DNA of 64,000 nt from Bradyrhizobium sp. B097 (lineage in GTDB: Bacteria; Pseudomonadota; Alphaproteobacteria; Rhizobiales; Xanthobacteraceae), in NCBI RefSeq assembly GCF_038957035.1, contig NZ_CP152412.1, positions 3,406,501-3,470,500 on the forward strand. Direction: 5' to 3'. The translations under genes and the position numbers were made by a program. Shown one piece after another: positions 18,851 to 24,040 of the stretch (position 1 is the stretch's first letter; each line of letters starts with the position of its first letter). The notes beneath the pieces were generated by a model. It saw nothing but the letters and a program-made list of their open reading frames with translations. It was not told where the DNA came from and searched no databases.

Positions 18851-19147
18851 TTACGCCCGCGTGCCGGTGAAGGGGAAGCTGCCCATCGGGCCGATGCCCA
18901 TCTCGCCGGAGATGCCGTCGCCTGCGACCGTGCCGGAAAATTCGAGCGTCAGCGGCATCGGATTGGTGATCGAGACCTTCCAGGCGACGCTGTCGCCGTT
19001 CACGGTGCCGTCGAAGATTTCGGTGGAGTTGCCCTCGGCGCCCTGCGTGCCGGTGAGCGTGCCGCCGGAGCTCGCCAGCGACAAGGTCGCCTTGCGCTCG
19101 CCCATCGGCGTCGTCATCGTGAGATTCCAGTTTCCGTCCACCGCCAT
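18851..19147 (-). CDS. Small conserved beta-rich protein of unknown function
   Basis: These 98 residues carry no signal or membrane helix. The chain is a series of short strands with glycines: GNWNLTMTTPMGERKATLSL, TLTGTQGAEGNS, EIFDGTVNGDSVAWKVSITN, LEFSGTVAGDGISGEMGIG, FPFTGTRA. This looks like a small beta-barrel or sandwich. The SGTVAGDGISGEM pattern is often seen in stand-alone proteins or C-terminal domains in Bradyrhizobium. It is a single gene with its own start and lies behind repeat family B. Confidence 0.65.
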   Translation of the reverse strand: MAVDGNWNLTMTTPMGERKATLSLASSGGTLTGTQGAEGNSTEIFDGTVNGDSVAWKVSITNPMPLTLEFSGTVAGDGISGEMGIGPMGSFPFTGTRA

Positions 19148-19226: not shown

Positions 19227-19781
19227 TCAGGCGCGGGCGGCGGCGCGCAGCCGGTTGCCGACCAGGAAGCGGAAAGCGACGTACTGGATCGCGAACGCGG
19301 CGATCTTGGCCCCGACCAGCACCACCGACACGTAGAACGCCCACAGCTTCATGTCGCCGGTCGCAGCGATCGCGATGGTGCCGGCGGCGAGGATGAACAT
19401 CAGCCCGGCCCAGGCGTAGCCGGCGAGAGTGGCGTATTCCGGAATGGTCTCGGTCACGATCGGCGGCAGATAGCGCAGCATCCAGCCGCGCTTGAGCATG
19501 ATCGTGCCGATCGCGATGTGGCCGATCGCGGGCTTCGCCAGCACGAAGCGCGGATCGTTGGTGAGCAGCGTCGCGCCGCCAAGCACGATCACCAGTCCAA
19601 GGCTCGCCCAGGTCATGTAGCCGAGCGCCTGTCCCCTGACGCGCGCATAGACCACTTGGGCAACCGCACCCACGATCGCAACAGCGGTGGCGATCAGGAC
19701 ATTGTTGGTGGCGAGATAGACCACCAGGAACACGATGGTGGAGAAGAAGTCGCTCGCGAGCCTGGCAAATACGCTCTTCAT
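19227..19781 (-). CDS. IspZ/YciB-family inner membrane protein (septation protein A-like)
   Basis: This 184-residue protein has five or six membrane helices. The family marks are LASDFFSTIVFLVVYLATNN at the start, RFVLAKPAIGHIAIGTIMLK in the middle and IQYVAFRFLVGNRL near the end. The YciB family includes intracellular septation protein A, whose loss disturbs division or envelope in some bacteria. It lies 57 bases behind another membrane protein of similar layout and the two probably form one operon controlled by the TetR operators at 20433-20504. Confidence 0.78.
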   Translation of the reverse strand: MKSVFARLASDFFSTIVFLVVYLATNNVLIATAVAIVGAVAQVVYARVRGQALGYMTWASLGLVIVLGGATLLTNDPRFVLAKPAIGHIAIGTIMLKRGWMLRYLPPIVTETIPEYATLAGYAWAGLMFILAAGTIAIAATGDMKLWAFYVSVVLVGAKIAAFAIQYVAFRFLVGNRLRAAARA

Positions 19782-19838: not shown

Positions 19839-20414
19839 TCAGCGTGACGGCAGCGCGCCAGCCGGCGGCGTCCCGTACTTGGCCGCGCGATATTGCGGAT
19901 ACCAACGGGTGAAGCCCACCGCGGCGTTGCGCGCGGCGAAGGCGATCAAGAGGCCGGTCCACAGCGGCAGGGCCGGCACATAGAGCACCGCGATGTTGCC
20001 GATCAACATCAACAGCGTCGCGGCGGTCCAGGCTCCGGTGATCAGGTAGTTGGCAGTGAGGAAGCCCGGCTGCTTCGCGATCTCGGCATCGACCTGCTCC
20101 AGCGCATATTGCCGCGTGAAGGGATGGCCGATCAGGATCGAGCCGAACGACACCAGCAGGATGCCGGCATCGACGGCGATCTTCACCGCGATTGTGCTTG
20201 GCGTCGGATCGACGAAGGTGAGGTAGCTGCCGACCGCGGTGAACACGATCACCGAACCGACGCCGAGGATCTTGATGCTGCGGCCGCGCGCGATATCGAA
20301 CGCGATGACGGCAAGGCAGATCAGCGCGGCAGCGAGCAGGCTCACCGTGGCCGAGGTCACCAGCATCAGCGTGGCAAAGGCGCCGTAGGGAGCGAGGATC
20401 AGGAAGATCGTCAT
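19839..20414 (-). CDS. Multi-pass membrane protein, distant YciB/IspZ-like
   Basis: This 191-residue protein has about six membrane helices. Segments such as KIAVDAGILLVSFGSILIGH, PFTRQYALEQV and a C-terminal AFAARNAAVGFTRWYPQY resemble the layout of its downstream neighbour, suggesting a related fold, although the sequences have diverged. The ATG at 20414 was chosen because GAGG lies shortly before it; an earlier in-frame start would be inside the operator DNA. Its promoter carries the same operator pair as the carotenoid oxygenase gene, so both should answer to the TetR regulator encoded at 23318. Confidence 0.72.
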   Translation of the reverse strand: MTIFLILAPYGAFATLMLVTSATVSLLAAALICLAVIAFDIARGRSIKILGVGSVIVFTAVGSYLTFVDPTPSTIAVKIAVDAGILLVSFGSILIGHPFTRQYALEQVDAEIAKQPGFLTANYLITGAWTAATLLMLIGNIAVLYVPALPLWTGLLIAFAARNAAVGFTRWYPQYRAAKYGTPPAGALPSR

Positions 20415-20432: not shown

Positions 20433-20504
20433 ATCTTTACACCGTAAAGATACCGTAGAGGCGGGCAGAGGGAGCGTCAAGCGAAATCTTTACAGTGTCA
20501 AAAT
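20433..20504 (-). promoter_or_regulatory. TetR-type operator pair around the promoter of the membrane-protein operon
   Basis: Site 1 (20433-20451) is the perfect palindrome ATCTTTAC-ACC-GTAAAGAT. Site 2 (20486-20504) is ATCTTTACAGTGTCAAAAT with a weaker right half. On the minus strand a -35 TTGACG (20475-20480) and a 17-base-spaced -10 TACGGT (20452-20457) lie between them, so one site abuts the -35 and the other covers the start point. The same layout occurs at 23226-23298. Confidence 0.85.
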
Positions 20505-21013
20505 CGTGATGTGATGCTGAAAATGTGAGTTATTCCAATTGAATGGGGCCGTGATGGTTCGCTTGCTGTGTTCTTCGCGGTCGTCATGGCCGGGCTTGTC
20601 CCCGGCCATCTTCGTCTTCCGTTCAACAGGCGACAAAGGCGTGGATGTCCGGGACAGGCCCCGCGTTTTGACCGAGACGGTCGAGCTTGAAACCGGGCTT
20701 GCCGGTGCGGTCGACCCAGTTGAGGATGGCGCCGAGATCGGCCGTGGAGCGTAATCCGAAGATCAGGGCCGAAGCCGCGCAGCGCGGGTGCGATAGCGCC
20801 AGCCTTGAAGGTTTGACGTCGGTCCGGTCCACTCGCAACAGGCAGCAGCTGTCCTTGACCGTGAGTTGCTTGCGCTTTGGAAAGCGTGATTAGCTGCAAG
20901 CGAGGAAGTGCGAGGACGCGAGCGACCGCGATGGATAAGGCAACGCTAGTCACGGCCTTTGATCAAAGAGGTGACGTCGCTCCAAGGTTCGTACCGCATG
21001 GACGAAAATAACG
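20505..21013. other. Intergenic stretch with a palindromic repeat and no convincing gene
   Basis: This region of about 500 bases contains an inverted-repeat element at about 20577-20672, with GTCATGGCCGGGCTTGTCCC on one side and GTGGATGTCCGGGACAGGCCC on the other. It is a repeat type common in this group from memory. The rest (20680-21000) has short open frames on both strands, none with start signals or recognisable motifs. A decayed gene is possible but cannot be shown. Confidence 0.5.
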
Positions 21014-21673
21014 ATGAGTGGTTCAAACATGGCGGCGGCGAGTTGCAAGACAAGGCTCACAAAGGCGTGCAGTGCGGCGATGTTGATGGCCCTTCTCATG
21101 GATCCATTTCCAAAGGTCGCGGCGCAAGAGGGTATCTTCCGCTGGCGAGTCAATCGAACAGAGAAACAGTCCGTCCTCGTTCAAGCTGCGTCTGATGCAA
21201 CCGATGATTTCGGTCGTGTGGTTCTTTCCTGTGAACTTACATCTGGGAACGTCGAAGTCTCGGTGATGATGGAGGACGATCAGCGTGCCAAATTTGCGGA
21301 ACTTTTGAAGAGCGAACGCTATCCAACTGTTACGCTATCGAACGGCGGTGAGAACAATAGGTCGGTGATCGATAAGCTAGTATTCAGTGACGTGGGTGGT
21401 TGGTCGTATGCCTTTCATGTTCAGGATGATGACGAGTGGTTGGCCGATTTCGAAAAGACCGGAACGCTACGCTTTACGGTGGGAGACACCATAAACGACA
21501 GCGATAGTTTGAACGTCGGTCTCGACGCGATCGCGGCCTTTCGAGATCAGTGCAGAAAACCGCCGCAGGCATTACCCCCATCGAATCACTCCGGCGGCTC
21601 GTTGCCGTGGACCAAGCCGAATCCAAACGCATTCCCGCCGCCTCCGGTGCCCTCCGGCCAACGCGGGCAGTAA
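21014..21673 (+). CDS. Putative exported protein, AT-richer than neighbours
   Basis: This 219-residue protein has a possible signal (SAAMLMALLMDPFPKVAAQE) cleaved after VAAQ. The mature part (EGIFRWRVNRTEKQSVLVQA, then GRVVLSCELTSGNVEVSVMM) alternates polar and hydrophobic residues like a secreted beta protein. The tail is proline-rich (LPWTKPNPNAFPPPPVPSG). Codon use is less GC-biased than in nearby genes, and no family is recognised. The reading frame is long enough to be real, but it may be a horizontally acquired orphan. Confidence 0.5.
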   Translation: MSGSNMAAASCKTRLTKACSAAMLMALLMDPFPKVAAQEGIFRWRVNRTEKQSVLVQAASDATDDFGRVVLSCELTSGNVEVSVMMEDDQRAKFAELLKSERYPTVTLSNGGENNRSVIDKLVFSDVGGWSYAFHVQDDDEWLADFEKTGTLRFTVGDTINDSDSLNVGLDAIAAFRDQCRKPPQALPPSNHSGGSLPWTKPNPNAFPPPPVPSGQRGQ

Positions 21674-21800
21674 CTCTTGATCGGGTGGTCCTCTGCGGCA
21701 GGCTTTGAATCTCGACGGCCAACAAGTGTCGGTCTTGGTCAAAGCCTGCCCGGGCGTGACAGTGGAGGAATTAGCTCGTGCTGGAGAGGGCGCGCGTCGC

Positions 21801-23204
21801 CTACTCCGCCCCCACCCAATTGCCGTGGAATCCATCCGGCACGCGGTGGCCGAGATGAACCAGCGCGGTCGGGCCGGCCTCGACGTCGGTGGCGTTGAAG
21901 ACGGCGAGGTCGCTGCGGTTTTCGCGGGCGCGCCAGACCGCGGCGAGCAGCCAGCCGTCGCCCTCGGCAGCGCCCGAGCCGCGCTCGACGAAGACAGGCT
22001 CGGAGATCGTGTCGCCGGCCGGCAAGAGATATTTGCCGAGCCGCTTGCCCGCGCCGTCGACATGCACGATGCCGGACAGCGCGCCGGCCAGCGGCACGTC
22101 AGGGTCGGTGCTTGCGTGCCAACCGTGGCTATTCCTGAGACCGGCGCGGCGGTCGTCGATGCGCGGGAATTCGCCGGTCAGATCGTTGAGATAGGTTTGC
22201 GTGAAGCTGTCGGTATTCCCGGCCAGATCAAAGCTCCAGCGGCAGAGCCGGGCGCTCGATTTCTTCTCATCCGTCGGCGAGCCGTCGGGATGGGTGAACA
22301 GCGGCGGCTCCTCGTACTGCATCACGTCGGCGACGATGCGGTTGCCGTCTTCCCATGCGTTCATGACGTGGAAGACATAGCAGTTCTCGGCGCGGAACCA
22401 GACCAGATCGCTGGCTGAGCCGTTGCGCTTCATGACGCCGACATAGGCGCCTTTTCCCGGCTCCCAGGCGTAGGGCGGCTTGCCACGCATCGCGCGTTCC
22501 ATGCTGCCGGTGATCGGCAGGATCGGAAACAGCACGTGGTTCTCGGTGACGATGAAGTCGTGCACCATGCTGGCATAGGGCGCCTCGAAGCGTTCGAACC
22601 GCGTCACCACGCCGGATGAATTGACCGCGCCATACGACAACGCCGGCGTCAGCGGACCGGCGGCGTTGTAGCCGAAGAACACCATCTCGCCGGTGACCGG
22701 ATCGATCTTGGGATGGGCGGTGAAGGGGCCCGATATCGCGCCCTTGTAGTCGCAATAGCCGAGGCGGTCGAGCGTGCCGGGATCGATCTCGGTCGGCAGA
22801 TGGCCTTCCTCGAGCGCGAGCAGGCGGCCGGCGTGGAAGATGATGTTGGTGTTGGCGACGCCGCTGTCGGTGAGGGTCGTTTCCGGCGCATCAGGCAGCT
22901 TGCGGCCGAAGCCGCCGAACAGTGCGCGTCCGGCGTCGTGCTCGGCCTGCCATTTCGGGGTGCGTACCCAGCGATTGCGATAGCTGGCGCGGCCGTTCTC
23001 GAGATGGAAGGCGTGCAGCATGCCGTCACCGACGAACCAATGCGCGCCCGGCACATTGAACTGCGGATTGGGGCCGTTGCGGTACAGCGTGCCGTTCAGC
23101 TCGCGCGGCAATTCGCCTGTGATCTTCAGAAACGGCGCGTCGGCTTCAAATGGAATCGGCGCCAGATTGCTTCGCGCCGTGTTGGATGTGACCTGATCGA
23201 GCAT
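21801..23204 (-). CDS. Carotenoid cleavage oxygenase (RPE65/lignostilbene dioxygenase family)
   Basis: This 467-residue non-haem iron enzyme cleaves a double bond in carotenoids, apocarotenoids or stilbenes. The four iron-ligand histidines are all in place: H164 in GPFTAHPKIDP, H215 in YASMVHDFIVT, H279 in CYVFHVMNAWED and H460 in GFHGNWVGAE. The N-terminal ELPRELNGTLYRNGPNPQF is the family signature for the first blade of the propeller. It diverges from a TetR gene across a region with two operators, one of which covers its predicted start point. The length and motifs are normal. The substrate is unknown. Confidence 0.93.
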   Translation of the reverse strand: MLDQVTSNTARSNLAPIPFEADAPFLKITGELPRELNGTLYRNGPNPQFNVPGAHWFVGDGMLHAFHLENGRASYRNRWVRTPKWQAEHDAGRALFGGFGRKLPDAPETTLTDSGVANTNIIFHAGRLLALEEGHLPTEIDPGTLDRLGYCDYKGAISGPFTAHPKIDPVTGEMVFFGYNAAGPLTPALSYGAVNSSGVVTRFERFEAPYASMVHDFIVTENHVLFPILPITGSMERAMRGKPPYAWEPGKGAYVGVMKRNGSASDLVWFRAENCYVFHVMNAWEDGNRIVADVMQYEEPPLFTHPDGSPTDEKKSSARLCRWSFDLAGNTDSFTQTYLNDLTGEFPRIDDRRAGLRNSHGWHASTDPDVPLAGALSGIVHVDGAGKRLGKYLLPAGDTISEPVFVERGSGAAEGDGWLLAAVWRARENRSDLAVFNATDVEAGPTALVHLGHRVPDGFHGNWVGAE

Positions 23205-23225
23205 TCCGCATCTCCCTGCATTATA

Positions 23226-23298
23226 ATCTTTACACCGTAAAGATATCAGTAGGAGTGACGCCGCCGATCGTCAAGCAAAATCTTTACAGTGTAAAAAT
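23226..23298. promoter_or_regulatory. TetR-type operator pair between carotenoid oxygenase and TetR genes
   Basis: Site 1 (23226-23244) is identical to 20433-20451 over all 19 bases. Site 2 (23280-23298) is ATCTTTACAGTGTAAAAAT, with a perfect TTTACA-G-TGTAAA core. The sites start 54 bases apart (53 at the other locus). On the minus strand TTGACG (23269-23274) and TACTGA (23246-23251), 17 bases apart, form the oxygenase promoter between the sites. Binding by the divergently encoded TetR protein would block it and probably its own gene. Confidence 0.88.
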
Positions 23299-23317
23299 TG
23301 CGACATATAAGGGCCGC

Positions 23318-24040
23318 ATGGCAAGATTATCCAAAGAAAACAAGGCGACTCGTCCAACACGGGCTCCGACCCGCCGGGTTGCGCGTGCCGCCAATCGCTC
23401 GGCACCGCGGCGCCGGACCAATGACACGCCGTATCATCATGGCGATCTGCATGAAGCGCTACTGAAGGCCGCGGAGCGCGTGCTCGAGTGTGATGGACTG
23501 GCCGGACTGACACTGCGTGCGGTGGCACGCGAGGCCGGCGTGTCGCATGCCGCGCCCACGCATCATTTCGGCGATCTCACCGGATTGCTCAGTGAGCTCG
23601 CGGCGATCGGCTTCCGGCAGTTCGGCCAGGCGATGGCAGCGGCGGACGCTTCAGCGGCGACACCGCCCGAAAAGGGAGTGGCGAGCGCCAAGGCTTATGT
23701 CGCCTATGCGCAGGCGCATCCCGGCATGTATGGGCTGATGTTTCGCAGCGAGCGGCTCGATCATGAGCGGCCGTCGCTGCACGAGGCGTCCGAGGCGTCG
23801 TTCGCCGGGCTGACCCGCGGCGTCGGCGCCAGCCGACAAGAGCAGATTTCCAAGGAGCAGCTTACATTGGACCAGGCGGCCGCGATCGCGTCGGCCTGGT
23901 CGCTGGTGCATGGCTTTACCATGCTGCTGCTCGACGGCCGCCTCAAGACGATTCTGGATCGGTCGCCCGAGGGCACATCAGTGGAAGCGTTGTTGACCGC
24001 GATGCTGCGTTTGTCTGCGGGCCGCTCAGCGCGGCTGTAA
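23318..24040 (+). CDS. TetR-family transcriptional regulator
   Basis: This 240-residue regulator has a basic N-terminal extension (about 30 residues rich in R, A and T). The DNA-binding domain follows: HHGDLHEALLKAAERVLECD, then LTLRAVAREAGVSHAAPTHH and FGDLTGLLSELAAIGF. The C-terminal ligand domain contains YVAYAQAHPGMYGLMFRSER, the TetR_C_33/WHG-type pattern. The ATG at 23318 was chosen; the open frame extends upstream but would include operator DNA. The matching palindromes before the oxygenase gene and the membrane-protein operon make this the likely repressor of both, perhaps released by an apocarotenoid. Confidence 0.9.
   Translation: MARLSKENKATRPTRAPTRRVARAANRSAPRRRTNDTPYHHGDLHEALLKAAERVLECDGLAGLTLRAVAREAGVSHAAPTHHFGDLTGLLSELAAIGFRQFGQAMAAADASAATPPEKGVASAKAYVAYAQAHPGMYGLMFRSERLDHERPSLHEASEASFAGLTRGVGASRQEQISKEQLTLDQAAAIASAWSLVHGFTMLLLDGRLKTILDRSPEGTSVEALLTAMLRLSAGRSARL

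Follow-up and report, generated by a model that had tools for sequence, protein, structure and literature searches.

The stretch of DNA analysed here (the window) comprises 64,000 nucleotides of the Bradyrhizobium sp. B097 genome and contains a small cluster in which a gene for a TetR-family repressor (tetR, 23318–24040, plus strand, 240 amino acids) diverges from a gene for an enzyme of the carotenoid cleavage oxygenase superfamily (CCO, 21801–23204, minus strand, 467 amino acids). Downstream of the latter, a second minus-strand operon encodes a protein here called MemB (19839–20414, 191 amino acids, several hydrophobic segments), a polytopic member of a membrane-protein family without a name, and a divergent paralogue of YciB/IspA (19227–19781, 184 amino acids). 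Each of the two minus-strand units is preceded by a pair of related palindromic sites that bracket a predicted promoter. Comparison with related loci suggests that the cluster forms a local regulon in which TetR controls its own gene and acts through two twin-operator promoters, one for the CCO and one for MemB–YciB, an interpretation to which we give a probability of roughly 0.8.

Putative twin operator sites and the predicted promoters between them

A preliminary description of this DNA had reported an identical 19-base palindrome at 20433 and 23226, with a related second site 53–54 bases further on in each case, and both sites of both pairs were located as claimed. The 19-bp palindrome, ATCTTTACACCGTAAAGAT, is perfect and spans the predicted transcription start at the oxygenase promoter (23226–23244), and recurs with the same letters at the membrane-operon promoter (20433–20451); these two copies are designated O1. 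The outer sites, designated O2, are ATCTTTACAGTGTAAAAAT at the oxygenase promoter (23280–23298) and ATCTTTACAGTGTCAAAAT at the membrane-operon promoter (20486–20504), the latter without an adjoining divergent gene. The start-to-start distance is thus 54 bp at the former and 53 bp at the latter. Allowing up to three mismatches to the palindrome, the window holds seven matches (both strands counted), as compared with none in 100 shuffles. The same description had proposed a genome search for the palindrome. Only two exact copies exist in the 9.25-Mb genome, at the two O1 sites; two mismatches add only the partner at 23280, and three add the partner at 20486 together with two unpaired sites (genome positions 512 and 183238). 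The exact twin pattern likewise occurs twice, at the oxygenase and membrane-operon promoters. Chance repetition is ruled out by the shuffles, by this genome-wide scarcity and by genus-wide retention with zero matches in the controls (see below), and a mobile repeat by the absence of the exact palindrome from the rest of the genome. A plasmid origin, also considered, was rejected, with one weak match at 6% query coverage.

Both minus-strand promoters show the order O2, 5 bp, TTGACG, 17 bp, TAC..., O1. At the oxygenase promoter the predicted −35 and −10 elements are TTGACG (23269–23274) and TACTGA (23246–23251), and at the membrane-operon promoter TTGACG (20475–20480) and TACGGT (20452–20457), so that the arrangement TTGACG-17-TACnGn anticipated inside each pair is indeed present. 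To follow this geometry among relatives, 34 orthologous loci fetched from 35 other Bradyrhizobium genomes (G027 was excluded, its contig ending at the locus) were combined with the window, giving 35 loci. In all 65 of their twin sites TTGAC begins exactly 5 bp past O2, and TA lies 17 bp beyond the −35 element in 64 of the 65. A candidate second promoter with TATAAT at 23220–23225 was discarded, as it is not kept in the downstream sequences of the orthologues. On the plus strand, the −35 element of tetR, TTTACA (23283–23288 in the window), falls inside O2 in 35/35 loci, at a distance of 16–17 bp from the tetR −10 element in every one of them. In the window this −10 is predicted to be TATAAG (23306–23311, plus strand), with the ATG 6 nt later. 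The presence of an in-frame ATG 6–7 nt past the −10 in 32 of the 35 loci predicts that the tetR mRNA is leaderless.

The spacing of the sites had been described as close to five helical turns, which would place two dimers on one face of the DNA. This is compatible with what is seen within the genus, whereas other clades show spacings of 45, 46, 49 and 52–57 bp, of which those of 45, 46 and 49 bp do not conform to it. In the 195 Bradyrhizobium genomes scanned (that of strain B097 included), spacings of 21–50 bp are represented by three cases, all of 42 bp, and none of 56–86 bp was found, which by exclusion leaves 51–55 bp for the remaining twins and at first sight suggested phasing in whole turns. 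In the L050 locus, where the spacing is 42 bp, the −10 element falls within O1 and the 17-bp promoter spacer is unchanged. This geometry, the fixed position of the −35 element 5 bp past O2 and the 45-, 46- and 49-bp spacings elsewhere led us not to conclude that twin sites are kept on whole turns; a fixed promoter between O2 and O1 accounts for the spacing equally well as the helix-face proposal.

The following mechanism may be proposed. A TetR dimer would bind the 19-bp palindrome ATCTTTAC-RNY-GTAAAGAT. With O2 located 5 bp upstream of the −35 element and O1 over the transcription start just past the −10, the target promoter would be sandwiched, and two bound dimers would deny RNA polymerase access from either side. 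O2 at the divergent promoter would in addition mask the −35 element of the putatively leaderless tetR, leading to autorepression. A hydrophobic inducer would then free TetR, so that the oxygenase gene and the MemB–YciB operon are switched on together and tetR itself is relieved. The oxygenase might cleave the inducer or a related compound, while the membrane proteins might deal with the inducer, or with its effect, in the membrane.

Conservation and the probable link to TetR

The exact twin pattern was found in 177 of the 195 genus genomes, and a single site with at most one mismatch in 190; the reversed pattern, used as control, gave no match in either case. Orthologues of tetR were present in all 35 other Bradyrhizobium genomes examined for it (best E-value 1.4e-76 or lower). 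The TetR, CCO, MemB and YciB genes are all present in 29 of the 34 fetched loci, and the CCO gene in 33. As for the exceptions, the gene set of L045 is incomplete where its contig ends; MemB was not found in L042 and L070, which also miss the second twin; L047 has lost YciB and the second twin and carries MemB immediately behind the CCO; and L063 has lost the CCO and retains a MemB fragment. In all, the 35 loci hold 35 twins beside tetR and 30 before MemB, the second twin disappearing where MemB or YciB moves directly behind the CCO, or where MemB is lost (L042, L047 and L070). Since the twin is kept before MemB in 30/35 loci, where no gene diverges from it, O2 does not serve solely for autoregulation, and repression of the enclosed promoter is likely to involve both sites.

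Additional sites were looked for in 12 genomes, and four further places were fetched, namely two twins (L169 and L171) and two single sites (L170 and L172). Each of the two twins, together with the same promoter, occurs in a single genome, as though the cassette had been co-opted there, in one case before an MFS_2 transporter (L171, 3782–3854) and in the other before an M20 peptidase (L169, 3582–3653).

The module is also recognisable in other bacteria. An alignment search of genome contigs with MemB returned 387 relatives, of which the best 80 loci were retained. TetR is encoded in 44 of these, the CCO in 37, both in 32 and neither in 31. The TetR gene lies on the opposite strand in 41 loci (a count that omits three of the 44 TetR matches, on the plus strand in L115, L125 and L157), and a twin pair was detected in 39 of the 41, including 31 of the 33 not labelled Bradyrhizobium. 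By the same criteria, no pair was detected in 1753 other 360-bp windows of these loci or in 4100 block shuffles. The spacings of the 39 pairs are 45 (3), 46 (8), 49 (5), 52 (6), 53 (9), 54 (4), 55 (1), 56 (1) and 57 (2) bp. In 24/80 loci the CCO gene lies on the same strand within 260 bp upstream of MemB, and in 13/80 TetR directly faces MemB with no CCO upstream; the sample, having been drawn with MemB, cannot tell which target is older or which partner commoner. A single-sequence MemB search in the order found relatives in 10 of 297 genomes, including three from other genera. TetR, CCO and twin sites are present in two of the latter loci (L085 and L086) but not in the third (L087). The regulon is, on sequence comparison, near-constant across Bradyrhizobium and recognisable beyond it.

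Several variants of the module were encountered in the same survey. A second, distant copy is present in Bradyrhizobium sp. dw_411 (L074, 1094–4710, on the contig shared with L128), where a TetR (46%), a DUF6790 membrane protein, a CCO (32%) and a MemB (42%) accompany twin sites 52 bp apart. In L093 (5282–5351), which is named Bradyrhizobium, two tandem MemB-like genes follow a twin site and no TetR gene occurs in the fetched stretch. Four loci of Tardiphaga type (L131, L136, L137 and L139) carry an extra IspA-like gene with its own twin site between CCO and MemB.

The TetR protein itself, which has a basic N-terminal extension and a helix–turn–helix at about residues 48–93, matches Pfam TetR_N (PF00440; 1.9e-09, 37.6 bits vs a cutoff of 24) and TetR_C_33 (3.1e-14). 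A conserved palindromic operator stands at the promoter of its own gene in 35/35 loci. Moreover, differences between clades in the operator core are matched by differences in the recognition helix: the O1 core TTAC/TTAC pairs with Ala78 of TetR in 57 of 58 cases and TTCC/TTCC with Thr78 in 11 of 11, nine mixed cores being found besides, in a count restricted to loci that have a twin pair and whose TetR match reaches 100 bits or more (pairless loci and weaker matches excluded) and including a few loci twice, via two fetching routes. In the paralogous L074 cluster, Thr78 goes with a mixed TTAC/TTCC operator. This covariation, together with the location of the tetR −35 element inside O2, argues that TetR is the likely regulator of the twin sites, and thus supports both the assignment of the divergent TetR and the idea of one regulon joining the oxygenase and the membrane genes, as first put forward.

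Several points weigh against this interpretation. A plain sigma-70 consensus scan omits both minus-strand promoters, whose −10 elements fit poorly (1 site vs 1.1 expected), so that the case for them rests on their conservation. A looser, degenerate pattern with three mismatches yields 271 genome sites, as compared with 90 for the reversed control, and weak single sites elsewhere in the genome are therefore conceivable. Five of the 195 genus genomes have no site, and 18 lack the exact twin pattern. Phylogeny accounts for part of the covariation, as most of the TTCC group is beta-proteobacterial, although Thr78 also occurs in the Bradyrhizobium paralogue of L074. The degenerate pattern applied to other clades had been designed after inspection of those very loci. 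Finally, both TetR and CCO are absent from the fetched stretch in 31 of the 80 MemB loci, so that MemB exists outside the module too.

The oxygenase and the membrane proteins

The CCO belongs to the RPE65/CCO superfamily, as judged from its match to Pfam RPE65 (5.6e-136) and from its four Fe-ligand histidines (His164, His215, His279 and His460), which are kept in all of the best 120 of 5711 homologues, each at least 78% identical. The name carotenoid cleavage oxygenase, used in the preliminary description, is appropriate at the superfamily level only; the NCBIfam model CarotCleavDioxg scores 303 bits against a cutoff of 675. The best NCBIfam match is lignostilbene-alpha,beta-dioxygenase, with 421 bits vs a cutoff of 800. 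Among solved structures, the best-scoring are 6xm6, which we take to be LSD4 of Sphingobium SYK-6, and lignostilbene dioxygenases, a group to which NOV1 belongs. According to PMC8191317, Tyr101 and Lys134 of LSD4 contact the 4-hydroxyl of the substrate, and residues 59, 101 and 134 of 6xm6 are Phe, Tyr and Lys, in agreement with that paper. The CCO is like LSD4 in fold family, in its Fe–His set and in retaining Phe59; it differs in having Phe99 and Glu132 as the equivalents of Tyr101 and Lys134, and in scoring below the NCBIfam cutoff. Phe99 is invariant among the same 120 homologues, and position 132 is Glu in 115 and Val in five; in enzymes from named loci, Glu is found in 25 of 30. With two of the three substrate contacts replaced, the CCO is not a lignostilbene dioxygenase by defining residues, and the sequence establishes neither a stilbene nor a carotenoid as its substrate.

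MemB has no Pfam match, and its match to NCBIfam VC0807 (NF041646; 2e-06, 27.6 bits) is under the cutoff of 65. It has 2676 relatives at E ≤ 0.001, the nearest named proteins being those of B. embrapense (96% identical) and B. mercantei (95%). The earlier designation of the membrane proteins as YciB-like suits the product of 19227–19781, which matches Pfam IspA (PF04279) at 7.8e-16 with 59.2 bits vs a cutoff of 28.7, but not MemB, which has no PF04279 match and reaches an hhalign probability of 0.3% against YciB. Some MemB relatives bear the database name 'intracellular septation protein A' (P0004, P0035 and P0243). The YciB-like protein, although over the Pfam cutoff for the septation family, is a divergent paralogue, since the canonical housekeeping YciB lies elsewhere in the genome, at position 194692 of the contig (8e-59 vs about 7e-15 for the regulon copy). 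Another divergent PF04279 copy lies outside the regulon, at 2769059–2769526 of the contig. For the MemB family, with thousands of members and no matching Pfam model, the regulon provides a first functional context.

Possible role and relation to known systems

As regards function, a tentative reading is that the module responds to an apocarotenoid or another non-phenolic alkene, which TetR would sense, the CCO would cleave and MemB and YciB would handle in the membrane. This would be consistent with an RPE65/CCO enzyme that keeps its four His ligands and has its phenol-binding pair replaced, with the 24 loci in which CCO and MemB adjoin in the same direction, and with L074, where a distant CCO at 32% identity accompanies MemB and TetR. 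Against it stand the 13 loci where MemB is faced by TetR and lacks an upstream CCO, which imply that the inducer need not be the CCO substrate. These same loci would fit an alternative that we regard as doubtful, namely a response to membrane stress or solvents, with the oxygenase gene as an accessory. Other membrane proteins do occur in a like setting (DUF6790 in L074 and a DUF2306-like protein beside TetR in L071), as do the single-genome twins before a transporter and a peptidase (L171 and L169). However, the oxygenase is kept in 33/34 fetched Bradyrhizobium loci, and the MemB-drawn sample is silent on the commoner partner. It is unlikely that the cluster is a detoxification unit for lignostilbenes or phenylpropanoids, with the CCO as a lignostilbene dioxygenase and a root or lignin stilbene as inducer. 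The top NCBIfam and structural matches, and the lignostilbene dioxygenase name given by one source to the close homologue P0126, point in that direction, but the score falls well under the cutoff and the Tyr101/Lys134 contacts described in PMC8191317 are replaced. Finally, that the palindromes belong to another regulator or form a structural element is most improbable in view of their position at tetR and its −35 element, the recognition-helix covariation and the lack of other exact copies in the genome.

Returning to the alkene response, it is tempting to speculate, with considerable doubt, that plant-associated and soil bacteria share a module composed of a leaderless TetR sensor, a distinct CCO clade (Phe/Glu replacing Tyr/Lys), MemB as a dedicated membrane partner of the CCO, and twin-clamped promoters. 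If so, TetR might respond to a root-derived apocarotenoid or to some comparable hydrophobic olefin, and these bacteria would be able to detect plant compounds of this kind and cleave them at the membrane.

The classical divergent, autoregulated TetR/target pair with tandem operators is TetR–tetO, whose target is an efflux pump. The present system has in common with it the divergent repressor, the palindromic operators over promoters and, as predicted, autoregulation. Unlike in TetR–tetO, the same twin sandwich is found at two target promoters, one without a divergent gene; the genes under control encode an oxygenase and small membrane proteins rather than an efflux pump, and a leaderless mRNA is predicted for the repressor. 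A mycobacterial TetR-family regulator, Rv0653c, adjoins the CCO gene Rv0654, a likeness that concerns gene neighbourhood. We know of no MemB or YciB genes or twin sites at Rv0653c. In PMC4482099, Rv0653c is among the regulators with a predicted upstream motif. No description of a regulon of the present composition was found in the open-licence literature, in line with the preliminary description; the type of regulator is known, while novelty appears to lie in the composition, in the promoter sandwich common to both targets and in the clade of the enzyme. The regulon provides precisely placed operators throughout the genus, together with a TetR sensor, for a CCO clade that misfits the lignostilbene enzymes beside which it is filed. 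As ligands of TetR proteins are often pathway substrates, compounds that release TetR from its operators would make the CCO substrate directly testable.

Two further features of the locus may be mentioned. A conserved 98-residue protein (18851–19147, minus strand) is encoded behind YciB in most orthologous loci; its membership of the operon is uncertain, and in L049 its gene lies 2.3 kb from that of YciB. The gap of about 1.2 kb between the CCO gene and the MemB promoter (20505–21800) matches nothing in the compared loci except a dispersed repeat of about 80 bp (near 20580–20660), and contains an open frame on the plus strand (21014–21673) with no Pfam match.

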